A stretch of DNA of 64,000 nucleotides from Hanleya hanleyi (Eukaryota; Mollusca; Polyplacophora; Lepidopleurida; Hanleyidae), in NCBI GenBank assembly GCA_036873755.1, contig JAVTVY010045495.1, positions 143,089 to 207,088 of the forward strand. The letters are read 5' to 3'. Under the pieces are notes generated by a model. It had not been told where the DNA came from, did not search any database, and saw nothing but the letters and a program-made list of their open reading frames with translations. The translations under genes were made by a program, and so were the position numbers. Shown here one piece after another: positions 837 to 33,189 of this stretch (the first letter of the stretch is position 1; each line of letters begins with the position of its first letter).

Positions 837-842
837 TGTAAA

Positions 843-875: not shown

Positions 876-894
876 TGTGTTTGATGATGGGGAT

Positions 895-900: not shown

Positions 901-990
901 AAGAATTAATACCACATCATGATTGACTTTGTCTCTGTTCTCTGAGGTAGATAAGAAGAGCAGAGTTGTGGGTTCTGGCATTAGTTGTAC

Positions 991-2145: not shown

Positions 2146-2178
2146 AACCAACAGCAGCAGCAGGACAGCTCAGTCGCC

Positions 2179-3306: not shown

Positions 3307-3308
3307 AC

Positions 3309-4621: not shown

Positions 4622-4622
4622 C

Positions 4623-5096
4623 ATGGATAAAGACCAGATAACCACCGTGCTGGAGAAATACCCAGGGACACGTATGGTCTTTCAAGGGGTGTTCGCCCGA
4701 GATGTGTTCCCATTAGACCGTGTGTATCCTGCTGCTTACGTTCTCAACACGGACCCGATGGATCGGCCCGGTGAACATTGGGTGGGCGTGTACTCGACAG
4801 AACAGCAGGGCGAATACTTTGACCCGTACGGCCTGCCACTCCTCCATCCCGATTTAACAGACTTCATGGATCAAGGCACAGAGACGTGGTGTTGGAACAG
4901 TCAAACGTTGCAAAGCCTGACCAGTAGCGTGTGCGGACAATATTGCTTGTTTTACCTGTACCATCGATGCCAGGGAAGAACCTTATCTACCATCGTACAG
5001 ATGTTTGACGAGTACCCCAAGGCCGAGGACCGATATGTACTCGTATATGACTGGGCCGCCTATCATTTCAATATACAAGCCCCGTTCTGGGTTTAA
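4623..5096 (+). CDS. Adenain-type maturation cysteine protease
   Basis: 157 residues from ATG 4,623; an in-frame ATG at 4,563 lies inside the major capsid gene and is not favoured. The adenain/C5-like catalytic set is present: His52 in EHWVGVY, Asp67 in YFDPYG, a Gln at 94 or 97, and Cys104 in SSVCGQYC, in the order and spacing of adenovirus proteinase and its Polinton homologues. The enzyme would cleave capsid precursor proteins during virion maturation. The gene is intact and last in the cluster. Its final codons already form the first of four hairpin repeats that fill the 3' UTR. Confidence 0.92.
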   Translation: MDKDQITTVLEKYPGTRMVFQGVFARDVFPLDRVYPAAYVLNTDPMDRPGEHWVGVYSTEQQGEYFDPYGLPLLHPDLTDFMDQGTETWCWNSQTLQSLTSSVCGQYCLFYLYHRCQGRTLSTIVQMFDEYPKAEDRYVLVYDWAAYHFNIQAPFWV

Positions 5097-5198
5097 GTTC
5101 TTTCAATGTACAAGCCCCCTGTTCTGGGCTTAAGTTTACAAGCCCCCTGTTCTGGGCTTAAGTTCTATCAATCTCCAAGCCCCCTGTTCTGGGCGTCA
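5079..5198 (+). repeat. Four hairpin repeats at the protease 3' end
   Basis: Four copies of a ~21-base hairpin unit, AAGCCC (N8) GGGCTT or close variants, start near 5,079, 5,115, 5,139 and 5,177, separated by short T/A-rich spacers. The first, slightly diverged copy is inside the coding sequence. Each can fold with a 6-bp stem. The series ends 40 bases before the poly(A) signal. The loop differs from the GGCTCCCCCA element of the ATPase and zinc-finger genes. Confidence 0.75.
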
Positions 5199-5236
5199 GT
5201 TTTCACGTGGTTGTTCTCACGTTGTTGTTGTTACTG

Positions 5237-5242
5237 AATAAA
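5237..5242 (+). terminator. Poly(A) signal after the protease gene
   Basis: AATAAA followed by an A-rich stretch, 141 bases after the protease stop; the most likely 3' end of the capsid-gene transcript. Confidence 0.6.
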
Positions 5243-6110
5243 AAACAAAATGAGATCTCACCAAAAAAACCCTGTCTTGTGTTTTCTATATGACCATAAT
5301 GCATGAAGGCTATAACAGGCATGTGGGGATTCGGTGAAACTGGCTTTGAACACCGTGGAGAAAGTAGCCAATCAGTGGCCTAGGATGGGGCCAAATGTAA
5401 CCCATCAATGTCCAAAAAACATTACTCGGATGTACAAGAACCCGGATGTAGGCGCGGATGTAGGCGAAAGCATCCTAGTACCTGAATGTAGGCGCGGACG
5501 TAGGCGAAATTCTAGTACCCGTCCATTGGTTCTTTTATCGATCGCTCATTGGCTCTTCTCGACCGCTGATTGGTCCAAATGGAACTACCCATCCTTCCCA
5601 GGTTAATTTACAATCCCCTTTTTGTGTTCAAGCTTTGTACATCGATGCCGCAACATTGTTGCCAAACATTGCCGAAAGGGAGACCTTTGAACTTTTGACC
5701 TGGATGTGACCTTTGACCTTTTGACCTGGATGTGACATTTGAGCTTTTGACCCGACATTCACCCGAGCACTTCCGGTGATGCCGCGCAGGCGCGCGGCCG
5801 GATAACCCGCGCACTTCCGGTGATGCCGCGCACGGCCGGAGAAAGCCCGCCCGCGCGCACGGCTGGAGAAATTCCGCGCACTGCGTGCTCGCGCTGCGGC
5901 CGAGGTGGGCCGGGCCGGGGTAAACCCGGATGTTGAAAAGGTCCCGGATGTTGAAAAGCTCCCGGATGTTGAAGAGGTCCCGGATGTTGTAGTACATGCA
6001 TTCCATAGATCTAAGAAAAACATTAGAACTCTTCTGTGTTCGGAGGTCATTCTGAAAACCGGAAATGACGTCACACACCACCCACCAAACCACGTGACCT
6101 GCGCAGCAGA
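5243..6110. promoter_or_regulatory. Promoter-like, GC-rich noncoding segment of the Polinton
   Basis: No gene recognised. From 5,420 to 5,515 a 'GGATGTAGGCGC' type motif is repeated about four times. Three ATTGG (inverted CCAAT) boxes lie at about 5,524, 5,548 and 5,569. A DR1-type nuclear-receptor site TGACCTTTGACC is at 5,707-5,718 among other TGACCT half sites. Two ETS-type CACTTCCGG copies lie in a CpG-rich block (5,765-5,905), followed by four ~18-base 'CCCGGATGTTGAA' repeats (5,926-5,990), and an ETS/CRE pair at 6,060-6,073. This looks like a regulatory region, possibly for transcripts running in either direction. Confidence 0.5.
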
Positions 6111-7010
6111 ATGTTAAACACGAACGACACACTAGTCCAGGCGGATGCCCCCTCACATAGGCTTCACATGGATACCTCACTCGATCCCTTCGGCCCACTA
6201 GTGGCCCACTTCGACCCCAACACGTCTATGTCCATACCCTTTCCTCACAATTCCCTGTCTGCGCATGCGCAGAACGTCGAACACGAACGACACACTAGTC
6301 CAGGCGGATGCTCCTTTACGAATGCTTCACATTGATACCTCACTCGACTCCATCGGACCATTAGGGGCTCACCTAAACCCCAAAACGTCTATGTCCATAC
6401 CCTTTTCCCACAATTCCCTGTCTGCGCATGCGCAGAATGTTGACAGCGAACGACACACTAGCCCAGGTGGATGCTCCCTCACGACTGCTTCACAGTGATA
6501 CCTCATACGACTCCATTGGCCCACTCGTGGCCCACCTAGGCCCCAAAACGTCTATTTTCATACCCTTTCTCTACTGCGCATGCGCAGAATGACGTCAGTT
6601 CCACGTCACACCCAGCGCGTTGGATACTCCCTCACGACTGCTTTACATTGATACCTCACTCGATCCCATCGGTGCACTAGTGGCCCACCTAAACCCCAAA
6701 ACGTCTATTTCCGTACCCTTTTCCCACAATTCCCTGTCTGCGCATGCGCAGAATGTGGACAACGAACGATACACTAGGCCAGGTGGATGCTCCCTCACGA
6801 CTGCTTCACATTGATACCTCATACGACTCTAGCGGCCCATTAGTGGCCCACCTCGACCCCAAAACGTCTATTTCCATACCCTTTCTCTACTGCGCATGCG
6901 CTGAATGACGTCAGTTCCACGTCACACCCAGTCCGTTGGATACTACCTCACGACTGCTTTACATTGATACCTCACTCGACCCAATCGGTCCACTAGCGGT
7001 CCCTACAGAT
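6110..7010. repeat. Tandem array I: alternating ~163/~151-bp units with TGCGCATGCGCA
   Basis: The palindrome TGCGCATGCGCA (NRF1-type) recurs at 6,260, 6,423, 6,574, 6,739 and, with one change, 6,891. The spacings 163, 151, 165 and 152 show a two-unit higher-order repeat. Alternate units add TGACGTCA directly after the site (6,590 and 6,906). Units share 'GATACCTCACTCGA' and 'AAAACGTCTAT' blocks, also found in the palindrome arrays at 8,300-8,940 (opposite orientation) and 20,940-21,465 (same orientation). Reading frames here are by-products of the repeat. Confidence 0.85.
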
Positions 7011-7340
7011 TGCCGAACATTCTCACGAAAACCCACGGTTTTGGGACTACTTTGGGTCCGCGGAGGCAGACCGCATCACCCCCAAACTGCATCACCGCGG
7101 AGGAATACATGCCCCCATGGTCACGCCCTATTCATCCAGACCGGAAGTGACGTCATACACTTGCGCAGAACACTCCTGCGCACACCTCCTCATGACCTCC
7201 TCATTTCTGCGCACACCACTTTCTCGCGCATGCGCAGTGAGGCGAAAAGGCGTCGAACGGTGTTTATACTACTACTCGCGCGGCGAAGGGTTGAAATTTC
7301 ACAGGCAGGTCACAAAATCCGATCAACCCTGACTCAAACC
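7010..7340 (+). other. Probable right end of the Polinton
   Basis: After the last array unit comes sequence with blocks shared with the right end of the large palindrome (21,465-21,600): 'GGGACTACT', a CCGCGGA motif, and 'GCATCACCGCGGA.GAATACAT', followed by GGTCACG. It also holds an ETS/CRE composite (CCGGAAGTGACGTCA at 7,141-7,155) and one more CGCGCATGCGCA (about 7,223). The exact terminus and any target-site duplication are not defined. Confidence 0.5.
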
Positions 7341-8290
7341 TAGATAACGATTTTGTCACCAAATAATGGAGCCTTTCTCATATAACTCGTATATTCTCGA
7401 ATTGAAAGACAATCATCATTGGAAGAAAGCTGAAAAGGCCCACAGTCGAGATAAAAGTGCGACAAACCTTCGTTCAGCTGAATTTGTCGACATTTTTGCG
7501 ATCTGCAGCAGATGAATTTCCGTAGCCTCGTTTTGATCGGTAGTCAAGGGCAACAGGTTACAAACTATTTCAAACCAGTGTGTGAATTATTTCAAACCCG
7601 TTTGTTGTGATATGGCCATTTCAAGCCTTGTAATCGACCAATGAGTTGATACGGGGTTCGGTGACAAAGATAATTCAATAGAAAATAAACTATAGCAGAT
7701 ATCAATTTCAAATTTTCCACAAATACACAGTAAGATACGTACTTTTCAGCCCATCTGTTTAAATAGAGATCGAATTCAGCGCTTTCATCCCACACAGTTC
7801 GGTATGTGTCAGACCATGCTTCTTTTCCAAACAAGGTGACCCATCACATCTCAATAATATTCATACGCCTATATAGGCAAGTAGTATATAAAGGACGGCA
7901 CAGCGCAACTTGACCTACTTTTTTGTTCCCCCCGGGTAAAATTTGCGGAGGAAATTGCGGAGGGGTTTCCCAGTGGGGGATTCCCCAGTGGGGGTTTCCC
8001 CATGACGATCACGTGATCAAGGCATGTCCTGACTTGTTCTGGGTTGTACAGTTCCGCCATGCGGAGAATGGGTACTAGTATTTCGCTGACGTCCTAGTAA
8101 TAAACATAATCTATAGGTGTTGTACCATGTTAATAGGATCAGTCTAGCATCTGTACCACCCTAGGGTCGATCATTTATTGTCCCGTGTATCTCCGCAGAA
8201 AATCAACAAACAAAATGGCGGCTCCAGGATGGTGTGGGGACGCCCTTTCCACATCACGGCGTCGATCCTAACCACAGCGCCATCTGCACA
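7340..8290. other. Spacer without recognised genes
   Basis: AT-richer sequence without viral motifs to about 7,900. A small repeat block, 'CAGTGGGGG.TTCCCC' with its approximate complement, lies at 7,965-8,003. Only short, non-conserved reading frames. It separates the end of the Polinton from the large palindrome and may be host DNA. Confidence 0.4.
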
Positions 8291-8299
8291 CACTGACGC

Positions 8300-8940
8300 A
8301 AGGGAGACAACTCGTGTGGACCAAGGGTATGGAAATAGCCGTGTTGGAGCTAGGGGAGCCACTAATGGACCAATGGGGTCGAGTGAGGTATCAAAGTGAA
8401 GCTTAGGTGAAGGGGCATCTAATGGGCTGGGTGTGGGATTGAAATAGCGGCATTCTGCGCATGCGCGGTGGCCCAAGGGTATGAAAATAGACGTTTTGGA
8501 GCTAGGGGAGCCCCTGATGGTCCAATGGGATCGAGTGAGGTATTAAAGTGAAGCCTAGGTGAGGGAGCCTCTGATGGGCTGGGTGTGGGGTTGAAGTATC
8601 GGCATTCTGCGCATGCGCGGTGGCCGAAGGGTATGGAAATAGCCGTGTTGGAGCTAGGGGAGCCACAAATGGTCCAATGGGATCGAGTGAGGTATCAAAG
8701 TGAAGCATTCGTGAAGGGGCATCTAATGGGCTGGGTGTGGGGTTGACATATCGGCATTCTGCGCATGCGCGGTGGCCAAAGGATATGAAAATAGCCGTTT
8801 TGGAGCTAGGGGAGCCCCTAATGGTCCAATGGGGTCGAGTGAGGTATCAAAGTGAAGCATTCGTGAAGGGGCATCTGATGGGTTGAGTGTGCGGTAGGAA
8901 TATCATTCTGCGCATGCGCAGACGCAATGCGGAGCTCTCG
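8300..8940. repeat. Tandem array II, left arm (~152-bp units)
   Basis: Four units marked by TGCGCATGCGCG/A at 8,456, 8,608, 8,760 and 8,909. Each unit has 'TCGAGTGAGGTAT.AAAGTGAAGC' and 'GTTTTGGAGCTAGGGGAGCC' blocks. The reverse complement of the same unit forms 20,940-21,465. Confidence 0.85.
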
Positions 8941-9140
8941 TCCAATCAGAAGCGAGTATTTCAAATTCGTCACAGAGCTCTCAGCCAATCAGAAGCGAGT
9001 ATTTTGACCCGGTGCATTATGGGCCATATCCAAGATGGCGGCACGTATGTTCAAGATGGCGGCACATCCGGTGTCGAAAACTGGCCATTTCGTCGGGATG
9101 TGGCCACCTAGTGTCGAAAACTGGACCTTGTATGGGTCCT
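8940..9140. promoter_or_regulatory. CCAAT and YY1-type site cluster (left arm only)
   Basis: Two copies of CCAATCAGAAGCGAGTATTT-like sequence (about 8,942 and 8,983) are followed by two YY1-type CAAGATGGCGGCA sites (about 9,032 and 9,051) and two 'GTGTCGAAAACTGG' copies. The right arm has no counterpart between its ~152-bp array and ~175-bp array, so this is a left-arm insertion or a right-arm loss. Confidence 0.6.
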
Positions 9141-9229
9141 GCTAGACGTTTTGGAGCTAGGGGAGCCCCTAATGGGCCGATGGAGTTGTATGAGGTATCA
9201 AAGTGAAGTATATTTCAAGCATGGGTGGG

Positions 9230-10010
9230 TGCATGTAAAATTTTACCTGAAAAAATACGGAACACGGACTTTATCCTAAATTACGCGAAAATGCCTATAT
9301 GGGGTATGGGGAGTATAGGACCATCCTGGGAAACCTACTTCTCGACATTTGCGGTATAGGTTGTGAGGTCTCGTTTTCTTAGTCTCGTCATGTAGAACAT
9401 GATAGGAAGTGTCGCGAAGCGAATCGTTGAAATTTTTGAAAAAGTACGATATAGCCCCATATAGTCCCATACTGGGGTATAGGATCAATGTTTGTCCCCC
9501 TGGGAAACGTACTTCTATACATTTGCGGTAGGGTTGTGGGGTCTCGTTTTACTCGTCTCGTCATTTAGAACATGATAGGAAGTGTCCCCGTGCGAATCGG
9601 TGAAATTTTTGAAAAAAGTCACCGAACCCCATATAGTCCCATACTGAGGGTATAGGATCAATGTTTGTCCCCCTGGGAAACGTACTTCTATACATTTGCG
9701 GTAGGGTTGTGGGGTCTCGTTTTACTCGTCTCGTCATTTAGAACATGATAGGAAGTGTCCCGGCATGAAACGGTGAAATTTTTGAAAAAAGTCACCGAGA
9801 CCCATATATAGACCCATATAGTCCCATACTGGGGTATAGGTTCAATGTTTATCCTACTGGGAAACCCACTTCTATACATTTGCGGTAGGGTTGTGGGGTC
9901 TCGTTTTTCACGTCTCGTCATGTAGAACATGATAGGAAGTGTTGCGGAGCGAATCGGTGAAATTTTTGAAAAAAGTCACCAAGGCCTGGGTAGGCCCATA
10001 GGCCTATACT
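9230..10010. repeat. Tandem array III, left arm (~174-183-bp units)
   Basis: 'GAACATGATAGGAAGTGT' recurs at about 9,394, 9,568, 9,742 and 9,925, each time followed by 'GAAATTTTTGAAAAA' and preceded by 'CATTTGCGGTA.GGTTGTG'. The mirror copy is at 20,160-20,760. No convincing gene. Confidence 0.85.
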
Positions 10011-10039
10011 GCATGGCTATGGGTGTATAGGGCCATACG

Positions 10040-10930
10040 GGGTGGACATGTTGGAGTCTAGGTGAGTCCCTAATGGTCCAATGGGGTCGAGTGAGGTCTT
10101 ATTTTGAAGCTCTCGTGGAGGAGCACTTGACTGCACTAATGGTTCGTCCGTGTTCAATAGTCTGCGCATGCGCAGCCTGGCCCGTAGTATAGAAAGTAGG
10201 CATTTTGGGGGTATGTGGGTGTGTGTTTGGGTTAGAGATGGGCTATTCACGGTTCGAATGGGTCGTGTGAGGTATCAATGTGAAGCTTGTGTGGGGTAGA
10301 GTCAGAATGGCGTGTTTTTAAATGCAAGTCGCGTCAATCTGCGCATGCGCAGTTGGTTGTAGTAGAGAAATCAGGCATTTTGGGGGTATGTGGATGTGTG
10401 TTTGGGGTAGAGATGGACCGCTATGGGTCCGAATAGGTCGTGGAAGGTGTCAAAGTGAAGCTTGTGTGGGTTAGAGTCAGAATGGTGTGTTTTTAAGTGC
10501 AAGTCGCGTTAATCTGCGCATGCGCAGTTGGTTGTAGTAAGTAAAGTGACCATTTTGGGGCAGTGCAGGTAGGTATTTGGGATAGAGAGGGACCATCCTT
10601 GGTCCGAATGCGTCGTGTAAGGTGTCATCTTGTAGCTCTCGGGGTGTAGATCCCGATTTAAGGGATGTTCGCGTCATCTGTGACGTCATCAGTGACGTAA
10701 TCAGTACGAGTAGTAGCGAAAGTGGACATTTTGGGGCAGTGAAAGGAAGGTATTTGGTGTAGAGATGGACCATCCTTGGTCCGAATGCGTCGTGGGAGGT
10801 GTCATTTTGTAGCGCTTAGGGTGTAGATCCCGAGTTGAGGGATGTCCGCGTCATCTGTGACGTCATCAGTGACGTCATCAGTGACGTCATCATTACGAGT
10901 AGTAGCGAAAGTGGGCATTTTGGGGCAGTG
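10040..10930. repeat. Tandem array IV, left arm (~175-bp units with NRF1 or CRE sites)
   Basis: Units near 10,040-10,530 contain TGCGCATGCGCA (10,163, 10,340, 10,514). The next units carry TGACGTCA sites instead: 10,681, and three at 12-base spacing at 10,858, 10,870 and 10,882. A shared frame of 'GAGATGGACC', 'AAGGTGTCA' and 'CATTTTGGGG' blocks shows one family with exchangeable site cassettes. Mirror array: 18,480-20,160. Confidence 0.85.
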
Positions 10931-10997
10931 AAGGATGGATTAGTAGTATGAAAGCGCATGTCGAGCCCCATTGACCTTGCGGCGCATTGCGCAATGA

Positions 10998-11282
10998 GTA
11001 TGCATGTGTGTGTGTAGGCGTCTGTGTGTGTGTGTGTATGCGTCTGTGTGTGTGCGTGTGCGTGCATGTGTGTGTGTATGCGTCTGTGTGTCTGTGTATG
11101 CGTCTGTGTGTCTGTGTGCATGTGTGCTTGCGTGTACGTGTGTGTGTATGTGTGTGTGTGTGTGCGTGTGTGTCTGTGTGCATGTGTGCGTACGTGTGTG
11201 TGTGTGTGTGTGTATGCGTCTGATGCGTGTGTGTGTGTGTGTGTATGCGTCTGTGTGTCTGGGTGCGTGTGTGCATGCGCCG
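10998..11282. repeat. (TG)n-rich tract, left arm only
   Basis: About 285 bases of TG repeats broken by regular 'ATGCGTC' and 'GCATG' interruptions. There is no equivalent at the mirrored place (about 18,340-18,480). The open frames coding for Val-Cys or Thr-His runs are artefacts. Confidence 0.9.
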
Positions 11283-11361
11283 AGTTCTAAGAGCCCCGGA
11301 GAGAGAACAACAACAACAAGGATGACACATGAGAGAACAACAAGAAGTTTTTGTCATATAG

Positions 11362-11416
11362 TTTATTATCCCCAAATTTTACATCATACCCAGGCTGGGG
11401 GAGCCGCCCTGGGTAT
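11362..11416 (-). terminator. Stem-loop (loop GGCTCCCCCA) and poly(A) signal of the left outer zinc-finger gene
   Basis: On the minus strand, GGCTCCCCCA (complement of 11,396-11,405) is closed by GGC/GCC and then, after one bulged base, ATACCCA/TGGGTAT (11,386-11,416). AATAAA follows at 11,362-11,367. The right-arm copy has CGC/GCG in place of GGC/GCC, a paired exchange with an unchanged loop. Confidence 0.7.
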
Positions 11417-11579
11417 GTTTAGTATGTTCGCATTCGAAATATCAAACACCGTGTTTTATTATTCAACGCATCGTCACATCAGGCACAAGTGTTTACTGAG
11501 CTCAAGTCAACGATCAGCATGTAGACATAGAGAGTATGTACGGCATGTTGTGGTATTCATCAGTGCATGGGTGACGCAT

Positions 11580-12503
11580 TCACCCGATGGGTTGATTGGT
11601 CGTCTTGGTGACGAAAAACGTAACATTGGTTACCCTCTTTACCACCCATTGTGTGTTGGGGCGTTGACGATGTGCCCATCTCAAGGCATCCAATTGTTCC
11701 ACTTGGGCCAGCATCATCTCTAGCGACGCCCGGTGAATGATGGTAAACGGCAGGTCAAACACAAGGTTGTTGGCACTGGGGTAACAATACCGTAACTGGT
11801 CCGTCTTTTTGTGACGTAAGATGTACCCGAAAGCGACATTCAATTTGAAGGCCGTAGTTTGATCTTCGAAGATGGCTTCCACGTAGCTGCGTAAACGGGT
11901 GAGTTTGGTCAGTGGGAAATTGTAGATATCTTCAATAGGGCGATGTTTGTGGAAACAGTACCGTGTCATGGACCAATGGCCCCGATCGTCGTCACTCACT
12001 GGATGGTTGTCCTGTAAGAGATCGCTGGGAACATTTATGGGCTCGACCATAAAATGTTCGATGTTGTCAGGCGAATGACTGGGAGCAGTAATGCTGGGGT
12101 CCGGCTGGATATCCAGGCTCTTCTGAACTGTGGGTATTGACAGACTCTCCGTCATCGCATCACCAGTGGCATTCGTCTCCCCGGGCTTATCTTCACTGGG
12201 TCTGACCTTCCACGGCTCCTCTTCAGTAGAAGGTTGTCGCTCATACCGTGGTGATGAACTATGAATCAAACGTTGGTGTCGCAGCAACTGACTGGGTCGT
12301 TTGAAAAGCCGACCACATTCATAACATTGTTCCTTCGCACCCTCGTGGAGTGAGCGTTCATGGCGCAGTAAAACATCCTCCCGATTGAACGACCGTGCGC
12401 AGGTTGTACATGTATACCGAGCATCGTTGTGGGTGGAGGCCTCGTGGCGTCGTAAATTATCTAGACGAGTAAACAGCTTCTGGCAAGTTGTGCAAGTGAA
12501 CAT
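11580..12503 (-). CDS. Outer three-finger C2H2 protein, left arm
   Basis: 307 residues, intact. Three C2H2 fingers of the C-x2-C-x12-H-x4-H type occupy residues ~4-82, followed by an acidic, Ser/Pro/Glu-rich linker to about residue 165. The C-terminal ~130-residue domain has conserved His-Trp, Tyr-Asn-Phe, 'FKLN.AFGY', 'RPNT.WVV' and 'VTNVTFFV' blocks. Domains like this C-terminal one are, as far as I recall, seen N-terminal to polymerase B in some invertebrate Polinton proteins; a profile search would settle this. It is only about 70% identical by eye to its mirror copy at 17,019. Likely a nuclear DNA-binding viral protein. Its own TATA box is at 12,550-12,556 (minus). Confidence 0.8.
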   Translation of the reverse strand: MFTCTTCQKLFTRLDNLRRHEASTHNDARYTCTTCARSFNREDVLLRHERSLHEGAKEQCYECGRLFKRPSQLLRHQRLIHSSSPRYERQPSTEEEPWKVRPSEDKPGETNATGDAMTESLSIPTVQKSLDIQPDPSITAPSHSPDNIEHFMVEPINVPSDLLQDNHPVSDDDRGHWSMTRYCFHKHRPIEDIYNFPLTKLTRLRSYVEAIFEDQTTAFKLNVAFGYILRHKKTDQLRYCYPSANNLVFDLPFTIIHRASLEMMLAQVEQLDALRWAHRQRPNTQWVVKRVTNVTFFVTKTTNQPIG

Positions 12504-12549
12504 CTTGGTGGTTGACAGAGAGTCGGATGAAACGACCAGGCCGCTCCCC

Positions 12550-12581
12550 TTTTATAGTACGCTAGCTGGTGATCTATTTTT
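12550..12581 (-). promoter_or_regulatory. Promoter of the left outer zinc-finger gene
   Basis: The minus strand reads AAATAGATCACCAGCTAGCG, three more bases and TATAAAA (TATA at 12,550-12,556), 47 bases before the ATG. The same box stands before all four zinc-finger genes. It overlaps the 3' end of the inner gene's transcript. Confidence 0.75.
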
Positions 12582-12637
12582 GATCCCCAAGTCGAGGACC
12601 AGACATATAGAGTATGTATTACATGCTATGGTATTCA

Positions 12638-13558
12638 TCAGTGCAAGGGTGGCACATTCACCCGATGGGGGTGGTCGGTCAGCTTGGTAACGAAAAACGT
12701 GACATTGGTCACCCTCTCTACGACCCATTGTGTGTTGGGGCGTTGTTGTTGGGCCCATTCCAAGGGATCCACGGTGTCCAGTTTCTCCAGCATTGCCTCT
12801 AGCGACGCCCGGTTAATGATGGTAAACGGTTCGTCAAATACCCGGATGTTACTGCTCGGGTAAAAATATCGGGCTGCTTGGTCTGTGTCCTTATGCTGCA
12901 GCACATAACCAAACGCCAGATTCAACTTGAAGGCCGTAGTTTGATCGTTGAAGATGGCTTTCACGTAGCTGCGTAGGCGGGTGAGGTTGGTCAGTCGGAA
13001 ATTGTAGATATCTTGAATGGGGCGATGACGGTAGAAACAGTGCCGGATCATGTGCCAATGGCGCCGATAGATGTCACTCACTGGATGGTGTTCGTGTAAC
13101 AGATCGCTAGGAACATGTATGGGTTCGTCCACGAAGTGTACTTTGCTCTCCTCGTCGTGCAAAATCTGGCCCAATGTCTTGTCGTCGGAATTTGACTGTT
13201 GAATTAGGGCGACATCATCATCTTCAACCCTCGTGCGATGGGTGGGAGTTCCCGCTTTCTCGATACTGGTGCCTACGGACTCTTCTACCTGCAAACGTGA
13301 CTGCAGAACAGGGTGTCGTGTGCGTTGGTGTCGCAGCAACTGACTGGTCAGTTTGAAAATCCGACCACATTCTTCGCATGGACGCTTGGGTACTTCATGG
13401 CGTGCACGTGTGTGGCGCTGTAAATGATCTGGGCGCTGAAACGACAGTGTACATATCGTACAGCTATGCCGGGCGGTTCCTTCGTGCTCGGTACCCTCAT
13501 GGCGGCGCAAGTCGTGCAGACGAGTGAATGCTTTCGAGCACGTAGTACAAGTGAACAT
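12638..13558 (-). CDS. Inner three-finger C2H2 protein, left arm
   Basis: 306 residues, intact. Fingers: C4/C7/H20/H25, C33/C36/H49/H54 and C61/C64/H77/H82. A linker with an Asp/Glu-rich segment follows, then the conserved C-terminal domain (about residues 175-300), as in the outer gene. The start codon is fixed because Phe2-Thr3-Cys4 begins finger 1 and the TATA box is 45 bases upstream. Its mirror copy at 15,957 differs at about eight residues but has a frameshifting deletion, so this is the only intact inner gene. Role: probably a sequence-specific DNA-binding protein of the element, possibly acting on the arrays in the same arms (inference). Confidence 0.85.
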   Translation of the reverse strand: MFTCTTCSKAFTRLHDLRRHEGTEHEGTARHSCTICTLSFQRPDHLQRHTRARHEVPKRPCEECGRIFKLTSQLLRHQRTRHPVLQSRLQVEESVGTSIEKAGTPTHRTRVEDDDVALIQQSNSDDKTLGQILHDEESKVHFVDEPIHVPSDLLHEHHPVSDIYRRHWHMIRHCFYRHRPIQDIYNFRLTNLTRLRSYVKAIFNDQTTAFKLNLAFGYVLQHKDTDQAARYFYPSSNIRVFDEPFTIINRASLEAMLEKLDTVDPLEWAQQQRPNTQWVVERVTNVTFFVTKLTDHPHRVNVPPLH

Positions 13559-13602
13559 CTTGGTGGTTGACAGTGTCTGATGAAACGACTAGGCCGCTTC
13601 CC

Positions 13603-13634
13603 TTTTATAGCACGCTAGCTGGTGATCTATTTTT
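13603..13634 (-). promoter_or_regulatory. Promoter of the left inner zinc-finger gene
   Basis: TATAAAA on the minus strand (13,603-13,609), preceded by the same GATCACCAGCTAGCG box as the other three zinc-finger promoters. A p53-type double half site lies ~110 bases further upstream (about 13,717-13,736) together with a TGACGTCA. Confidence 0.75.
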
Positions 13635-13812
13635 AGCACACACAAACGAACCCCCACAAACAGGTCAGTACCATCTCCTTTCCTTCAATTCACATCGAAA
13701 GTGACGTCATACCCCAACATGTCTAAACATGATCCGACAACATGAAAAGGATGCAGGTCAAGTGCACTCAATGACCTGGTGTACAAACGACCTAATATGA
13801 CCACTCACTCAC

Positions 13813-14390
13813 TCATGTGTGTGTGTGTGTCTGTTTACCTGTGTGTCTGCGTCTGTGTGTATGTGTCTGTGTGTGTGCGCATGCATGTGTGTGTGTAGGT
13901 ATGTGTGTGTGTATGCATAGGTGTGTGTATGTGTGTGGGTGTGCGTGAATGCGCGTGTGTGTGCGTGTAGGTGTGTATACGTCTGTGTGCGTGTGTATGT
14001 GTGTGTAGGCGTGTGCTTGTGCGTGTATATGCGTGAGTATGTGCTTGTATGCATCTGTGTGTGTGTGTGTGTGTAAGTGTGTGTGTGCTTGTCAGTGTGT
14101 TCACGCGTATATGTGTGCGTGTGTATGACTGTATGTGTGTATGCGTCTCTGTGTATGTGTGTGTGTGTGTACGTGTGGGTGTATGCCTGCGTATGCGTGT
14201 GTGTATGCATGTGTATGTATGTCTCTGTGTGTGTGTGTGTGCTTGTGAGTGTGTACGCGTGTGTGTATGCGTGCGTGTGTATATGCGTCTGGGTATACGT
14301 GTGTGTGCGTGTGCGTGTGTGTATGCATGTGTGTATGCATGTATGCCTCTGTGTGTGTAAGTGTGTGCTTGCGAGTGTGTTTCTTAGATC
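13813..14390. repeat. Interrupted (GT)n tract, left arm
   Basis: About 580 bases of GT repeats with ATGC, CGTCT and AC interruptions; mirror image of 15,118-15,705. Such alternating purine-pyrimidine DNA can adopt Z form. The long Cys/Val and Thr/His frames are not genes. Confidence 0.92.
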
Positions 14391-14394
14391 GGAG

Positions 14395-15118
14395 CTCTTG
14401 GAGCTCAAAGCCTGTGGAGCTCAGAGCTCGGAAGTGACATTTGCATATGTCCTCTGTGAGGTCACTTCCGCTTCCGTTCACGTGACCGGAACTGAGCTTT
14501 GACCCCGGCGCGCAAAGGTTTCCACAATGTTCATTCCTATATTTAAAGACTCTACCACCACCACACACACCACCCCCGACTCCACCAACACCACCACCGC
14601 ACACCACCAACACCACCACCAACGCCACCATCAACGCCACCAACGCCACCAACGCCACCACCGGGCGTCAACGCCCGGTGGTGGTGGTGGTGGTGGTGGT
14701 GGTGGCCGGAACTGACCTTTGACCCCGGCGCGCAAAGGTTTCCACCGCACGGTGGAAACCTTTACACCGCGCGCGCCGGGGTCAAAGGTCAGTTCCGGCC
14801 ACCACCACCACCACCACCGGGCGTTGACGCCCGGTGGTGGCGTTGGTGGCGTTGGTGGTGGCGTTGGTGGCGTTGATGGTGGCGTTGGTGGTGGTGTTGG
14901 TGGTGTGCGGTGGTGGTGTTGGTGGAGTCGGTGGTGGTATGTGTGGTGGTGGTAGAGTCTTTAAATATAGGAATGAACATTGTGGAAACCTTTGCGCGCC
15001 GGGGTCAAAGCTCAGTTCCGGTCACGTGAACGGAAGCGGAAGTGACCTCACAGAGGTCATATGCAAATGTCACTTCCGAGCTCTGAGCTCCACAGGCTTT
15101 GAGCTCCAAGAGCTCCGA
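14395..15118. repeat. Palindrome core with nested GC-rich hairpins
   Basis: The block 'TGA.CTTTGACCCCGGCGCG' occurs four times: + strand at ~14,492 and ~14,712, and inverted at ~14,775 and ~14,995. Between them, CACC-rich strands face GGTGG-rich strands, and two smaller hairpins with GGGCG/CGCCC stems (loops TCAA and TTGA) sit at ~14,655-14,690 and ~14,808-14,843. The outer edges hold octamer (ATGCAAAT), E-box (CACGTG) and ETS-like motifs. The whole could fold into a branched cruciform reminiscent in plan of hairpin telomeres. Confidence 0.85.
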
Positions 15119-15705
15119 TGTAAGAAACACACTCGCAAGCACACACTTACACACACAGAGGCATACATGCATACACACATGCATACACACACGCACACGC
15201 ACACACGCGTATAACCAGACGCATATACACACGCACGCATACACACACGCGTACACACTCACAAGCACACACACACACACACACAGAGACATACACACAC
15301 ATGCATACACACACGCATACGCAGGCATACACACACACGTACACACACACACACATACACAGAGACGCATACACACATAGTCATACACACGCACACATAT
15401 ACGCGTGAACACACTGACAAGCACACACACTTACACACACACACACACACACACAGATGCATACAAGCACATACTCACGCATATACACGCACAATCACAC
15501 GCATACACACACATACACACGCACACAGACGTATACACACCTACACGCACACACACGCGCATTCACGCACACCCACACACATACACACACCTGTGCATAC
15601 ACACACACATACTTACACACACACATGCATGCACACACACACAGACACACACCCACAGACGCAGACACACAGGTAAACAGACACACACACACACACATGA
15701 GTGAG
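15118..15705. repeat. Interrupted (AC)n tract, right arm
   Basis: Mirror copy of 13,813-14,390, matching even in most of the interruptions. Confidence 0.92.
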
Positions 15706-15778
15706 TCAGTGGTCATATAAGGTCGTTTGTACACCAGGTCATTGAGTGCACTTGACCTGCATCCTTTTCATGTTGTCG

Positions 15779-15798
15779 GATCATGTTTAGACATGTTG
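15779..15798 (+). promoter_or_regulatory. p53-family-like response element upstream of the inner gene
   Basis: GATCATGTTT AGACATGTTG fits the double RRRCWWGYYY consensus at 18 of 20 positions with no spacer. It lies about 125 bases upstream of the TATA box at 15,904, with a TGACGTCA site right after it (~15,804). The left arm has the mirror copy. Confidence 0.4.
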
Positions 15799-15879
15799 GG
15801 GTATGACGTCACTTTCGATGTGAATTGAAGGAAAGGAGATGGTACTGACCTGTTTGTGGGGGTTCGTTTGAGTGTGCTA

Positions 15880-15910
15880 AAAATAGATCACCAGCTAGCG
15901 TGCTATAAAA
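15880..15910 (+). promoter_or_regulatory. Promoter of the right inner zinc-finger gene
   Basis: Box AAATAGATCACCAGCTAGCG at 15,881-15,900 and TATAAAA at 15,904-15,910, 47 bases before the ATG at 15,957. A start of transcription near 'TCATCAG' (~15,930) would give a 5' UTR of about 25 bases. Confidence 0.75.
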
Positions 15911-15956
15911 AGGAAGCGGCCTGGTCGTTTCATCAGACACTCTGTCAACCACCAAG

Positions 15957-16866
15957 ATGTTCACTTGTACTACGTGCTCGAAAGCATTCACTCGTCTGCA
16001 CGACTTGCGCCGCCATGAGGCTACCAAGCACGAAGGAACCGCCCGGCATAGCTGTACGATATGTACACCGTCGTTTCAGCGCCCAGATCATTTACAGCGC
16101 CACACACGTGCACGCCATGAAGTACCCAAGCGTCCATGCGAAGAATGTGGTCGGATTTTCAAACTGACCAGTCAGTTGCTGCGACACCAACGCACACGAC
16201 ACCCTGTTCTGCAGTCACGTCTGCAGGTAGAAGAGTCCGTAGGCACCAGTATCGAGAAAGCGGGAAGTCCCACCCATCGCACGAGGGTTGAAGATGATGA
16301 TGTCGCCCTAATTCAGCAGTCAAATTCCGACGACAAGACATTGGGCCAGATTTTGCACGACGAGGAGAGCAAAGTACACTTCGTGGACGAACCCATACAT
16401 GTTCCTAGCGATCTGTTATACGAACACCATCCAGTGAGTGACATCTATCGGCGCCATTGGCACATGATCCGGCACTGTTTCTACCGTCATCGCCCCATTC
16501 AAGATATCTACAATTTCCGACCGACCAACCTCACCCGCCTACGCAGCTACGTGAAAGCCATCTTCAACGATCAAACTACGGCCTTCAAGTTGAATCTGTC
16601 GTTTGGTTATGTGCTGCAGCATAAGGACACAGACCAAGCAGCTCGATATTTTTACCCGAGCAGTAACATCCGGGTATTTGACCATCATTAACCGGGCGTC
16701 GCTAGAGGCAATGCTGGAGAAACTGGACACCGTGGATCCCTTGGAATGGGCCCAACAACAACGCCCCAACACACAATGGGTCGTAGAGAGGGTGACCAAT
16801 GTCACGTTTTTCGTTACCAAGCTGACCGACCACCCCCATCGGCTGAATGTGCCACCCTTGCACTGA
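15957..16866 (+). pseudogene. Inner zinc-finger gene, right arm, broken by an 11-bp deletion
   Basis: Near-identical to the left inner gene (12,638-13,558) up to about 16,680; the three C2H2 fingers are intact. Eleven bases present in the left copy are missing just after 'GTATTTGAC' (~16,674-16,682), so the frame meets a TAA at 16,689-16,691 after 244 residues. The rest of the C-terminal domain continues in another frame to the ancestral TGA at 16,864-16,866. A truncated protein with fingers and half of the C-terminal domain could still be made. Confidence 0.88.
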
Positions 16867-16941
16867 TGAATACCATAGCATGCAATACATACTCTATATG
16901 TCTGGTCCTCGACTTGGGGTAGTTGAACTAAAAGTGTGCTA

Positions 16942-16972
16942 GAAATAGATCACCAGCTAGCGTACTATAAAA
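16942..16972 (+). promoter_or_regulatory. Promoter of the right outer zinc-finger gene
   Basis: Same AAATAGATCACCAGCTAGCG box followed by TATAAAA (16,966-16,972), 46 bases before the ATG at 17,019. It starts about 75 bases after the inner gene's ancestral stop, so the inner gene seems to have no poly(A) signal of its own and may read through. Confidence 0.75.
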
Positions 16973-17018
16973 GGGAAGCGGCCTGGTCGTTTCATCCGAT
17001 ACTCTGTCAACTACCAAG

Positions 17019-17942
17019 ATGTTCACTTGCACAACTTGCCAGAAGCAGTTTGCTCGAATAGAAAGTTTACGACGTCACGAGGCCTCCACCCACAACGATG
17101 CACAGTATACTTGTATAATCTGTGCACGATCATTCAATCGGGAGGATAATTTACTGCGCCATGAGAAGGCACTCCACGAGGGTGTGACGGTACAATGTAA
17201 CGATTGTGGTCGACTCTTCAAACGACCCAGTCGGTTAAGACAGCACCAACGTTTGATTCATGCCCCGGTACCATGGCATGTGCGACAACATTCTACTAAA
17301 GAGGAGCCGCGGAAGGTCAGAGCCAGAGAAGATGAACCCGGGGAGACGAACGGCACTGGTGATGCGATGACGAAGAGCCCGCCTATACCTACAGTCCAGG
17401 AGGGCCTGGATATCCAGCCGGACCCCAGCGTTACGGTTTCGAGTCATACGCCTGACGACATCGAACATTTTTCGGAAGATGCTGTGGATGCCCCTAGCGA
17501 TCTGCTACAGGACGACCATCCAGTGAGTGACATCTATCGGCGCCATTGGACCATGATACGGCACTGTTTCTACCGTCATCGCCCTATTCAAGATATCTAC
17601 AATTTTCGACTGACCGACCTCGCCCGTCTAGGCAGCTACGTGGAAGCCATCTTCAATGACCAAGCAACGTCCTTCAAATTAAATCTGGCGTTTGGTTATG
17701 TGCTGCAGCATAAGGAGACAGATCAAGTCCGATACTTTTACCCGAGCAGTAACATCCGGGTATTTGACCAACCGTTTACCATCATTAACCGGGCGTCGCT
17801 AGAGACGATGCTGGAGAACCTGGCCACCGTGGATCCCTTGGAATGGGCCCAACAACAACGCCACAACACCAAGTGGATAGTGGAGAGGGTAACCAATGTT
17901 ACGTTCTTCGTGGTTAAACTGACCACCACCCCCATCGGATGA
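17019..17942 (+). CDS. Outer three-finger C2H2 protein, right arm
   Basis: 307 residues, intact, with three C2H2 fingers, an acidic/Pro-rich linker and the conserved C-terminal domain. Its N-terminal half resembles the left outer gene. In its C-terminal domain (HWTMIRHCFYRHRPIQDIYN and following blocks) it is closer to the inner genes than to its own mirror copy. This points to gene conversion between neighbouring genes on the right arm. A stem-loop and poly(A) signal follow. Probably a viral DNA-binding regulator. Confidence 0.82.
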   Translation: MFTCTTCQKQFARIESLRRHEASTHNDAQYTCIICARSFNREDNLLRHEKALHEGVTVQCNDCGRLFKRPSRLRQHQRLIHAPVPWHVRQHSTKEEPRKVRAREDEPGETNGTGDAMTKSPPIPTVQEGLDIQPDPSVTVSSHTPDDIEHFSEDAVDAPSDLLQDDHPVSDIYRRHWTMIRHCFYRHRPIQDIYNFRLTDLARLGSYVEAIFNDQATSFKLNLAFGYVLQHKETDQVRYFYPSSNIRVFDQPFTIINRASLETMLENLATVDPLEWAQQQRHNTKWIVERVTNVTFFVVKLTTTPIG

Positions 17943-18192
17943 AAGTATTCACCCATGCACTGATGGATTCTCAGAATGCGCAAACAACTATCTGAGGATA
18001 TGTTGCCTCAACCGTATCCTGGCCTGCCCGACGGTGATTAGAATAAACGGTTCAGAGCGAACATGGCCGAAGATGGAACTTTCTGAAATGGAGACTTCTG
18101 ATTGGACAAGAATACATCTAACGGACAGGAACGAATATGAAACATGCAAATGGTGGCCTCTGATTGGACAAGAATCTTCTTGAATTGTAAAT

Positions 18193-18246
18193 ATACCCAA
18201 CGCGGCTCCCCCAGCGTGGGTATGATGTAACATTGGGGAGAATAAA
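18193..18246 (+). terminator. Stem-loop (loop GGCTCCCCCA) and poly(A) signal of the right outer zinc-finger gene
   Basis: ATACCCA (18,193-18,199), bulged A, CGC, loop GGCTCCCCCA (18,204-18,213), GCG, TGGGTAT (18,217-18,223): a 10-bp stem. AATAAA follows at 18,241-18,246. A (GTT)n-rich stretch follows to ~18,330, matched on the left at ~11,295-11,350. Confidence 0.72.
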
Positions 18247-18479
18247 CTATATGAAAAAAAACTTCTTGTTGTTGTTGTTCTCTCATGTGTCATCCTTGTT
18301 GTTGTTGCTGTTGTTGTTCTCTCTCCGGTCTATATCATAGTGTTATGTTAGAGTGTTAAAGCGTAACGACGGGCGTCGAGGGCGTCGCTGCATTTCGAAG
18401 AATTAGTGACAATTCCATGGAATATCAGAGCTTCTGAGATATTTCACCAGGGCGTTGAAGCATTAAGAATGGCTTTGGT

Positions 18480-20160
18480 GGGCGTTGCTACAAGATGACA
18501 CCTCACACGACGCATTCGCACCGCGGATGGTCCATCTCTACATCAAATAACATCCTTCACTGCTAAAAAATGCCCACTTTCGCTACTACTCGTACTGATG
18601 ACGTCACCAATGACGTCACAGATGCTGTGGATATACCTCAACTCGGAATGTACACCCCGAGAGCTACAACATGACACCTCCCAGGACGCATTCGGACCAA
18701 GGATGGTTCCTCTCTACTCCGAATATCTTCCTTTACTACCCCAAAATGTCCACTTTCGCTACTACTCCTACTGATGACGTCAACAATGACGTCACAGATG
18801 CTTCGGACATGCCTCAACTCGGAATGTACACTTCGAGAGCTACAAAATGACACCTCACACGACGCATTCGGACTAAGGATAGTCCCTCTCTACACCAAAC
18901 TCACCCCCACGCACCCACAAAATGTCCCCTTTCGCTACTACTCGTACTGATGACGTCATCAATGACGTCACAGATGACGCGGACATCCCTTAAATCGGAA
19001 TGTACACCCCGAGAACTACAAGATGACACCTTCCAGGACGCATTCGAACCGTGAATAGCCCATCTCGACCCCAAACTCACCCCCACGCACCCCCAAAATG
19101 TCCACTTTCGCGACTACTCGTACCGATGACGTCACCGATGACGTCACAGATCACGGGAACATCCCTCAAATCGGTATGTACACCCCGAGAACTACAAGAT
19201 GACACCTTCCAGGACGCATTCCAACCGTGAATAGCCCATCTCGACCCCAAATACCTTCCTTCACTTCCCCAAAATGGCCACTTTACTTACTACAACCAAC
19301 TGCGCATGCGCAGATTAACGCGACTTGCATTGAAAAACACACCATTCTGACTCTACCCCACACAAGCTTCACTTTGACACCTCACACGACCCATTCGAAT
19401 CGTGAACAGTCCATCTCTACCCCAAACACACCCCTACATAGCACCCAAAATGCCCCCTTTCGCTACTACTCGTACTGATGACGTCACTGATGACGTCACA
19501 GATGACGCGGACATCCCTTAAATAGGAATGTACACCCCGAGAACTACAAGATGACACCTTCCAGGACGCATTCGAACCGTGAATAGCCCATCTCGACCCC
19601 AAATACCTTCATGTACTGCCCGAAAATGGCCACTTTCGCTACTACTCGTACCGATGACGTCACTGATGACGTCATAGATGACGGAAACATCCCTCAAATC
19701 GGAATGTACACCCCGAGAACTACAAGATGACACCTTCCAGGACGCATTCGAACCGTGAATAGCCCATCTCGACCCCAAATACCTTCCTTCACTGCCCCAA
19801 AATGGCCACTTTACTTACTACAACCAACTGCGCATGCGCAGATTAACGCGACTTGCATTCAAAAACACACCATTCTGACTCTACCCCACACAAGCTTCAC
19901 TTTGACACCTCACACGACCCATTCGAACCGTGAATAGCCCATCTCTATCCCAAACACACCCCTACATAACACCCAAAATGCCTGTTTTCTATACTACGGC
20001 CAGACTGCGCATGCGCAGACTATTGGACACGGACGGACCATTAGCCCAGTCGGATGCTACTCCACGAGAGCTTCAAAATAAGACCTCAACCGACCTCATA
20101 GGATCATTAGGGGCTCACCTAGACTCCAACATGTCCACCCCGTATGGGCCTATACACCCA
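18480..20160. repeat. Tandem array IV, right arm (~175-bp units with CRE or NRF1 sites)
   Basis: About nine units. Pairs of TGACGTCA or near-matches, 12-15 bases apart, recur near 18,598, 18,773, 18,950, 19,126, 19,478 and 19,653, and TGCGCATGCGCA at 19,301, 19,829 and 20,006. Unit frame: 'GACACCTTCCAGGACGCATT', 'CCCATCTC.ACCCCAAA' and 'AAAATG.CCACTTT'. More units than the left arm (10,040-10,930), so the arms expanded or contracted independently. Confidence 0.87.
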
Positions 20161-20760
20161 TAGCCATGTAGTATATAGGCCTATGGGCCTACCCAGGCCT
20201 CGGTGACTTTTTTCAAAAATTTCACCGATTCGCTCCGAGACACTTCCTATCGTGTTCTAAATGACGAGACGTGAAAAACAAATCCAAACAACCCTACCGC
20301 AAATGTATAGAAGTAGGTTTCCCAGGGGGACAAACATTGATCCTATACCCCCAGTATGGGACTATATGGGGCTATATCGTACTTTTTCAAAAATTTCACC
20401 GTTTCGTGCCGGAACACTTCCTATCATGTTTGTCTTGACGAGACGAGTAAAACGAGACCCCACAACCCTACCGCAAATGTATAGAAGTACGTTTCCCAGG
20501 GGGACAAACATTGATCCTATACCCCCAGTATGGGACTATATGGGGCTATATCGTACTTTTTCAAAAATTTCACCGATTCGTGCCGGGACACTTCCTATCA
20601 TGTTCTAAATGACGAGACTAAGAAAACGTGACCCCACAACCCATACCGCAAATGTCGAGAAGTAGGTTTCCCAGGGGGACAAACATTGATTCTATACCTC
20701 CCATACCCCATATAGGCATTTTCCCGTAATTTAGGATAAAGTCCGTATTCCGTATTTTTT
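20160..20760. repeat. Tandem array III, right arm
   Basis: Three units with 'TTCAAAAATTTCACCG' followed by 'CACTTCCTATC.TGTT' and 'CCCAGGGGGACAAACATTGA', the reverse complement of 9,230-10,010. Confidence 0.85.
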
Positions 20761-20939
20761 CAGGAAAAATTTTACATACACCCACCCTGGAACTAGGGGG
20801 AGATAACTCTATTGATAGGCAAGCCCCGTTAAGCCCGGCGACCTATATACCCCCCATATCCCATATAGGCATTTTCCCAGGTTTTTCGGTAAAGTCCGTG
20901 TTCCGTATTTTTTTTTTTCAGGAAAAATTTTACATGCAC

Positions 20940-21465
20940 CCACCCATGCTTGAAATATACTTCACTTTGACACCTCACTCGACCCAATCGGCTCATTAGG
21001 GGCTCCCCTAGCTCCAAAACGTCTATTTCCATACCCTTTTCCCACAATTTCCTGTCTGTGCATGCGCAGAATGGTGACAACGCCCGAGCCGCTAGTCCAG
21101 TCAAATGCCCCTTCACAAATGCTTCACTTTGATACCTCATATGACCCCATTGGACCATTAGGGGCTCCCCTAGCTCCAAAACGTCTATTTCCATACCCTT
21201 CGGCCACCGCGCATGCGCAGAATGCCGATACTTCAACCCCACACCCAGCCCATCAGATGCCCCTTCACGAATGCTTCACTTTGATACCTCACTCGATCCC
21301 ATTGGACCATTAGTAGCTCCCCTACATCCCAAAACGGCTATTTCCATACCCTTGGACCACCGCGCATGCGCAGAATGCCGCTATATCAACCCCACACCCA
21401 GCCCATTAGATGCCCCTTCACATAAGCTTCACTTTGATACCTCACTCGACCCAATCGGACCATTT
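20940..21465. repeat. Tandem array II, right arm (~152-bp units)
   Basis: NRF1-type sites at ~21,057 (one mismatch), 21,208 and 21,361, with blocks as in 8,300-8,940 inverted and in array I of the Polinton (6,110-7,010) directly. Confidence 0.85.
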
Positions 21466-21600
21466 TATCTAGGGACTACTGTTTCTCCGCGGAAGTTTTT
21501 TCCCGAGACCGAATCACCGCCAGACATGATCGCATCACCGCGGATGAATACATCTTTGACCTGGGTCACGTGATATGCAAATTTGGAACTCTCCTGTGCT
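21465..21600. other. Right end of the palindrome, related to the Polinton end
   Basis: 'GGGACTACTGTTTCTCCGCG', 'GCATCACCGCGGATGAATAC' and GGTCACGTGATATGCAAAT follow the last array unit and parallel 7,010-7,140. The mirrored left end (~8,290) lacks this block. Confidence 0.55.
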
Positions 21601-21712
21601 GGAGGTAGCTTTTGGTCCTTCTGCCGGAACTATACTCCACCTGACCTCTGTGACCTTGAAATGAGGTCGAAATGAGGTCAATACGCGCTGTAATAGCCTT
21701 TACCTACTACTT

Positions 21713-21818
21713 ACCTGTTTTAACGCATTAGTTTACCGAGTTTTGGAATTGATTACTTAGAACTTTGTTTGGTCGTCGCTATATAGCTGAAAAATTGCTG
21801 AATGCGACGTTAAACCTT

Positions 21819-21851
<33 letters not shown>
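21713..21851 (+). mobile_element. 5'-truncated LINE 3' tail with (CT)n
   Basis: 'CCTGTTTTAACGCATTAGTT', a spacer, 'GTCGCTATATAGCTGAAAAA', 'TGCTGAATGCGACGTTAAAC' and (CT)n. The same order, with small changes, forms the 3' UTR of the LINE ending at 44,172. Confidence 0.8.
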
Positions 21852-22719: not shown

Positions 22720-22861
22720 TATTGACTGTTCTTGCGGGCACTATGCTTTCATATAGTGTTGCTGAGGGAAGAATAGTGCCCTTGACTCGCTTCGCTCGTC
22801 CGGGCACTATTCTTCCCTCAGCAACACTATGAAAACATAGTGCCCGCAAGAACAGTCAATA
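22720..22861. mobile_element. Fold-back MITE, ~142 bp
   Basis: Arms of 62 and 60 bases (TATTGACTGTTCTTGCGGGC and its complement at the ends) differ by only two or three changes and enclose a ~20-base loop containing GACTCGCTTCGCTCGTC. Flanked by TA-like bases. No coding capacity. Confidence 0.85.
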
Positions 22862-33185: not shown

Positions 33186-33189
33186 TACT

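Follow-up and report, generated by a model that had tools for sequence, protein, structure and literature searches.

A multi-copy family of palindromic, probably non-autonomous Polinton-derived elements in Hanleya hanleyi, with a hybrid copy on contig JAVTVY010045495.1

Introduction

Is a palindrome of more than 13 kb in the genome of the mollusc Hanleya hanleyi the integrated snap-back genome of a Polinton-type virus, as a first-pass annotation of the locus proposed, or is it a mobile element of another kind? The palindrome lies in a stretch of 64,000 nucleotides (nt) of contig JAVTVY010045495.1 (hereafter the window), where it occupies positions 7,880-21,711 (13,832 bp) with its centre at 14,748/14,749. 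We consider it quite probable that it is a copy of a non-autonomous family of palindromic Polinton-derived elements, with a capsid- and integrase-bearing Polinton and full-length polymerase-B elements as putative helpers, and that this copy is a hybrid of two arm types, designated L and R. Most likely, the family represents a Polinton satellite mobilised in trans.

The palindrome in the window and its copies in the genome

Self-BLAST of the window gave one long inverted match, in which positions 11,555-17,968 matched themselves at 90.6% identity over 6,484 columns (8,962 bits), flanked by inverted blocks reaching outward to 8,316 and 21,464; no such match appeared in 10 controls shuffled in blocks of 2 bases. 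The mirror symmetry and the centre given by the first-pass annotation were confirmed, and its extent of 8,300-21,600 proved slightly short. Arm-to-arm identity is approximately 97-99% between the centre and about 12,530 on the left and 16,990 on the right, drops abruptly beyond these points to approximately 74-84% through the outer zinc-finger gene, and further outward passes through a patch of approximately 43-59% before reaching approximately 70-92% over the tandem arrays where these could be aligned. The element opens with AGTAGTATATAA at 7,880 and, on the reverse strand, with AGTAGTAGGTAA at 21,711. Its main structural features are the following (window positions):

7,880-21,711, no strand: palindromic element of 13,832 bp, an L-type arm joined to an R-type arm
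7,880-7,893, + strand: left terminus AGTAGTATATAAAG; the 6 bases outside it are TAGGCA
21,698-21,711, - strand: right terminus AGTAGTAGGTAAAG; the 6 bases outside it are TACCTG, no target-site duplication (TSD)
14,734-14,763, no strand: central hairpin (loop of 2 nt, 14,748-14,749), shared with 6 of the 11 other copies examined
13,815-14,380, no strand: TG/AC-rich simple repeat, inner left arm
15,140-15,697, no strand: AC-rich simple repeat, inner right arm

A search of the genome (2.48 Gb, 52,793 contigs) with window positions 11,555-13,600 as the query gave at least 45 matches on at least 34 contigs (40 of 9,965 first-look candidates were scored). Two matches were found on 11 contigs, a list that leaves out the second arm on the window's own contig; the two were inverted on all nine contigs where both matches were at least 450 bp long (9/9), and on the two remaining contigs the second match lay on the same strand and was shorter than 80 bases. 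Some single arm matches end at contig ends near the palindrome centre. The palindromic arms recur elsewhere in the genome, so that the palindrome is the form of a multi-copy element and no isolated case.

Both ends were read for five palindromes of this family, including the window copy, and for one palindrome of another class (on contig C4967, described below). AGTAGT opens nine of the ten family ends, and AGTATT opens the right end of the C6721 copy. The sister palindromes read at both ends, by contig, are:

C6721, 13,531 bp: identical 6-bp direct repeats ATCCTT
C25803, 11,951 bp: identical 6-bp direct repeats GATCTC
C47739, 12,870 bp: identical 6-bp direct repeats GGCCCT
C39811, 14,899 bp: no TSD, 4 of 6 positions mismatched

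A 6-bp TSD is present in three of the five palindromes and absent from the C39811 copy and from the window copy, in which 4 of 6 flanking positions are mismatched. In C6721, C25803, and C47739 the duplications stand at both sides of the whole palindrome, and the unique flanks differ between left and right. Because these sister palindromes are bounded as units by Polinton-type ends and 6-bp duplications, the elements of this family are mobile and integrated as palindromes, which bears out the Polinton link drawn in the first-pass annotation. For vertebrate Mavericks, PMC8097293 reports (AG)3//(CT)3 or (AGT)2//(ACT)2 ends and 6-bp duplications.

Zinc-finger genes and core genes

Each arm carries two outward-facing zinc-finger genes (A, inner, and B, outer), every one with a TATA box, in agreement with the earlier description of such genes with their own promoters. 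The four open reading frames (ORFs), each starting approximately 50 bases downstream of its TATA box, are as follows:

11,580-12,503, - strand: gene B-left, 307 amino acids (aa), three C2H2 fingers and a polymerase-B N-terminal domain
12,638-13,558, - strand: gene A-left, 306 aa, three C2H2 fingers and a polymerase-B N-terminal domain
15,957-16,691, + strand: gene A-right, frame ending early at 244 aa because of a small frameshifting deletion; similarity runs on to about 16,863
17,019-17,942, + strand: gene B-right, 307 aa, R-type
12,548-12,556, - strand: TATA box of gene B-left
13,601-13,609, - strand: TATA box of gene A-left
15,904-15,912, + strand: TATA box of gene A-right
16,966-16,974, + strand: TATA box of gene B-right

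Gene A-right (15,957) is the broken one of the four. Gene A aligned with protein P0003 at 31% over 96%; in a padded search, P0003 retrieved 1,041 related proteins from 3,180 candidates, and PF03175 (polymerase B family) was counted manually in 96 of the 120 relatives listed. A polymerase N-terminal profile built from the first 700 residues of 60 P0003-group proteins matched A-left (2.3e-40), B-left (4.4e-40), and B-right (1.1e-43), each in two stretches within profile positions 30-262, indicating that genes A and B are stand-alone N-terminal modules of a Polinton-type polymerase B. The polymerase link of this zinc-finger family is to the P0003/P0011 group; homology to the polymerase N-termini on contigs C4967 and C19966 is not claimed (hhalign probability 1.3%). 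Scanned against Pfam and PHROG, the palindrome genes gave zinc fingers and otherwise weak or chance matches only, and no relatives emerged from IMG/VR viral contigs when gene B-right and the capsid-type protein of the neighbouring element (see below) served as queries. For the pair B-left and B-right, dN/dS is 0.41 (NG86) or 0.56 (YN00); the zinc-finger module is under purifying selection. Our guess is that the zinc-finger protein, encoded on its own, probably binds to the ends or the arm arrays and recruits, or competes with, the polymerase.

No integrase gene was seen by eye among the ORFs of at least 90 aa in 7,880-21,711 (the Pfam scan covered the four zinc-finger ORFs only), and no capsid, ATPase, or protease gene was seen by eye among the palindrome ORFs; of polymerase B, the palindrome has no full-length gene, only the N-terminal approximately 300 aa (profile positions 30-262). 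Set beside an autonomous Polinton/Maverick, the window palindrome has the AGT-type terminal motif and lacks integrase, full-length polymerase B, and the capsid/ATPase/protease genes. It has the features of a non-autonomous Polinton derivative, namely Polinton ends, integration as one unit (seen in the sister copies, not in the window copy), absence of core genes, and relatives of the core genes in the same genome.

Two arm types and a hybrid copy

Piece mapping, within-copy inverted comparison, a tree of 37 gene copies, and segment identities agreed on two arm types. The copies on C6721 and C25803 have two L-type arms (LL), those on C866, C39811, and C47739 have two R-type arms (RR), and the C29520 copy is L-type on its left side, its contig stopping early in gene B on the right. 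C7043 and C40758 were left out of the typing, and C10497 holds a more complex array, in which R-type and L-type palindrome pieces lie in series (31,001-44,969; L026, L027), apparently as nested or tandem insertions. With an L-type left arm and an R-type right arm, the window copy is the sole hybrid among the six copies in which both arms were typed. Its left arm is 91-100% identical to the LL copies except in the terminal 60 bp, which resemble the R end; its right arm is 92-97% identical to the RR copies in gene B and 99% in the 3' region of that gene, and 80-87% identical to the LL copies. Gene B differs by approximately 20% between the two types, and gene A with its inner flank (15,700-15,956 and its mirror) is 97-100% the same in both.

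The window copy is a chimera and not a simple snap-back dimer; the first-pass annotation had likened it to a dimer of one genome end, a comparison that failed on the two diverged types of the outer arms and on the missing TSD. An L-type and an R-type palindrome would have recombined via the nearly identical 4.4-kb core, an origin that would also account for the missing TSD. Some right-arm segments (the 174-bp array) are no nearer to RR than to LL copies, which, together with the R-like terminal 60 bp on the left, indicates that the arms of the window copy saw more than one exchange. Private substitutions in module A of the window copy number 10 in the right half and 2 in the left, a hint that the two halves may differ in age; those of C39811 are similarly uneven (0 versus 7), and nearer the centre of the window copy the counts are 1 and 1.

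Central hairpin and origin of the symmetry

The central hairpin with its 2-nt loop was found in 7 of the 12 copies examined, including the window copy. A one-sided asymmetry of approximately 8 nt, in varying orientation, marks the hairpins of the window, C866, C29520, C28675, C48657, and C45962 copies; the C6721 hairpin is symmetric, C47739 retains one half only, and the remaining four of the 12 copies (C25803, C39811, C10497, and C43990) yielded no match to the motif. Because 7 of 12 copies share it, the palindrome looks inherited, not remade at each insertion; this points to one ancestral junction that would have been passed on, with later losses, rather than to repeated dimer formation.

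Arms of the same copy differ in gene A by 0.2-1.6%, compared to a between-copy mean of 0.8%. The corresponding values for gene B are 0.1, 0.3, and 0.7% within L-type copies (between-copy mean 0.7%) and 0.4 and 2.1% within R-type copies (between-copy mean 2.1%). Fresh copying of the two arms of each copy from one another found no support in gene A, and the signs of concerted evolution lie mainly at arm-type level.

The alternative that survives best is that the likeness of the arms comes from intramolecular gene conversion after integration alone, with no snap-back replication; we see it as a real, if doubtful, possibility. The longest inverted blocks within LL and RR copies are approximately 97-99% alike (some array and end blocks 91-96%) and gene B is 20% apart between L and R, a pattern that either process fits. 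Gene A identity is no higher inside a copy than between copies, however, so conversion after insertion is not needed, and the symmetry of the arms was probably set before insertion. For a palindromic satellite, the displaced strand may fold on itself during protein-primed replication, and the mirror form, which would need just one functional end sequence, could be inherited as such. Of the snap-back genome of a Polinton-type virus that had been proposed, the viral/Polinton link stands and the dimer of one end does not, while snap-back replication is a process that we infer.

Putative helper elements

The right part of a capsid-bearing element lies next to the palindrome in the window:

1-7,276, + strand: right part of the capsid-bearing element (13,242 bp as a whole, beginning at L028:4,035), with CGCGCG on both sides
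228-836: its ATPase-like gene, sub-threshold Pfam match
3,309-4,457: its capsid-type gene, which we take to be a capsid gene
4,623-5,096: its protease-like gene, sub-threshold Pfam match

This element has AGTAGTAGTATAAACACC ends (AGTAGT type); its CGCGCG flanks are less secure as a duplication because the element lies within a short inverted-repeat context. It carries an integrase gene, which scores 43.7 bits against Pfam rve (cut-off 32.6), two small ORFs without a Pfam match, and a zinc-finger gene that is disrupted and 82-83% identical to gene B; no polymerase ORF was evident on inspection of the ORFs in its 13,242 bp. For its capsid-type protein, the genome gave at least 108 matches of 93% or higher, on 108 different contigs (27,664 first-look candidates). 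A capsid element lies 603 bp from the window palindrome, about 4.3 kb from that of C47739, and no more than about 1 kb from that of C39811; in the flanking sequence fetched for C6721, C25803, C866, C29520, and C10497, nothing matched the capsid element of the window.

The best 38 of 37,977 candidates for P0011-group polymerases in the genome are 43-47% identical and lie on 38 contigs; 29 of these 38 have no inner stops, and the alignments start at the zinc fingers in 8 of 38 and at about residue 83-107 in the others. A zinc-finger gene and arrays are common to the palindrome and the adjacent integrase element; none of the 38 scored polymerase contigs is among the 34 palindrome contigs. The related capsid/integrase Polinton may supply integrase, and perhaps capsid, and full-length polymerase-B elements may supply replication.

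A second class of palindrome carries its own polymerase genes; one member, on contig C4967 (16,472-33,958; L033, L034), was read. This 17,487-bp palindrome has arms of approximately 8.7 kb, AGTAGTATAG ends (AGTAGT), and an arm-to-arm identity that falls outward from 98.5% near the centre through 90.6% to 85% at the ends; a polymerase B gene (PF03175) with N-terminal C2H2 fingers faces outward in each arm, and the flanks show no TSD (5 of 6 positions mismatched). Relatives of this polymerase were found on at least 27 contigs at 68% or more (43 of 25,436 candidates scored), and two copies, all outward-facing, are present on five contigs (C4967, C28015, C41214, C17501, and C4519). Contig C19966 is canonical-looking, with a polymerase and capsid-type genes. 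These elements could form a divided Polinton system, in which 13.2-kb capsid and integrase elements without polymerase, 17.5-kb polymerase palindromes, and 13-kb palindromes with zinc-finger N-termini, AGTAGT-ended throughout, would be mobilised together, and the palindrome would be a stable inherited form replicating via its hairpin; we judge such an arrangement unlikely.

Several observations weigh against the reading that we prefer: the window copy and C39811 have no TSD; the 174-bp array of the right arm shows no preference for RR over LL copies; divergence inside copies, in gene A no lower than between copies and in gene B at or below the between-copy mean, gives little sign of a fresh snap-back at each insertion; and sharing of helpers between elements would be indicated by end motifs only.

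Remaining alternatives

Two opposed insertions of related single-arm elements, abutting by chance at the centre, would fit the window copy, whose outer arms are approximately 20% apart in gene B and have no common TSD; however, three of the five palindromes are one unit inside one 6-bp duplication, and the central hairpin is common to 7 of the 12 copies examined, making this explanation improbable. An assembly artefact, produced by a read folded back on itself, could be suspected since several copies lie at contig ends (L006, L008, C29520), a sign that these palindromes were hard to assemble. Both an artefact and a host duplication are very unlikely, however, because at least 34 contigs carry the same arms and 9/9 scored pairs are inverted; in addition, the window arms differ by approximately 16-26% in gene B, and the unique flanks of the sister copies are unlike on the two sides although the 6-bp duplication is identical; a read folded back on itself would have mirrored flanks. 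A host segmental palindrome homogenised by gene conversion, without a viral link, would produce the sharp step between inner and outer identity, but is hardly credible in the face of the dispersed multi-copy distribution, the Polinton-type ends, the TSDs, which already refute it for three sister copies, and the polymerase-derived genes; the arms have mobile-element boundaries.

Tandem arrays and other features of the window

The outer arms contain the following tandem arrays, none with an assigned strand:

8,316-8,919: 152-bp array, left arm, containing dyads of the TGCGCATGCGCA type; identity 98% with LL copies and 74-82% with the capsid-element arrays
9,325-9,980: approximately 174-bp array, left arm
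10,161-10,882: approximately 176-bp array, left arm
18,488-19,812: 176-bp array, right arm, rich in TGACGTCA
20,209-20,703: 174-bp array, right arm
21,101-21,464: 153-bp array, right arm

The 152-bp arrays of the palindrome are 74-83% identical to the terminal arrays of the neighbouring capsid element, in line with the likeness previously noted between the palindrome end and the end of the capsid-bearing Polinton. The motif TGCGCATGCGCA, common to the arrays of both elements, occurs 19 times in the window with at most 1 mismatch, always within 6,260-21,372 (0.08 expected), and TGACGTCA occurs 29 times, including 22 occurrences in 6,066-19,674 (1.1 expected); TGCGCATGCGCA was absent from both C4967 stretches examined. 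Presumably, TGCGCATGCGCA and TGACGTCA resemble NRF1 and CREB sites.

Elsewhere, the window contains Pao/BEL-type retrotransposon genes (58,944-62,861; matches to DUF1759, Peptidase_A17, and reverse transcriptase), a 494-bp tandem unit in three copies that are 96% alike (51,912-53,382), and short MITE-like palindromic hairpin elements of about 140-235 bp (22,720-22,861, 32,972-33,188, and 31,344-31,577). A stretch preceding a TC run at 21,770-21,850, which we take to resemble a molluscan SINE tail, has a similar 123-bp counterpart at 44,051-44,172.

Comparison with known systems and implications

The palindromes share with Polintons/Mavericks (adintovirus-like) the AGT-repeat end motif, the 6-bp duplication (in three sister copies, but in neither C39811 nor the window copy), terminal arrays also present in the capsid element, and genes derived from polymerase B; they differ in that neither a full polymerase gene nor genes for capsid, integrase, ATPase, or protease were seen in the palindrome, and in that the whole element is palindromic, whereas Polintons/Mavericks have short terminal inverted repeats. 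Internally deleted non-autonomous DNA transposons and MITEs likewise retain their ends, have lost their transposition genes, and are multi-copy, but the elements described here are 13 kb long, palindromic through the centre, and carry protein genes under purifying selection. Snap-back and defective genomes and concatemer junctions of linear DNA viruses (adenovirus, parvovirus, poxvirus) are head-to-head palindromes with a small imperfect central hairpin, as here; unlike them, the present palindromes, known from sequence alone, are repeatedly integrated in chromosomes as a unit and have two diverged arm types. Foldback transposons also have very long inverted arms containing tandem arrays, but the palindromes differ from them in the Polinton-type end motif, the 6-bp duplication, and the polymerase-derived genes.

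Polintons are placed near the origin of many DNA viruses of eukaryotes, and their replication is poorly known. No report of palindromic Polintons was found in the literature searched, which consisted mostly of non-subscription papers (including the available parts of PMC8097293, PMC2836005, and PMC12368964). A multi-copy family in which each element is palindromic over its whole length and inserted with duplications of Polinton type would preserve, as a natural record, one form of replication. The family also suggests that Polintons can give rise to a satellite lifestyle, based on retained ends and a regulatory fragment of the polymerase, and it offers a test of integrase and polymerase sharing between elements in animals.

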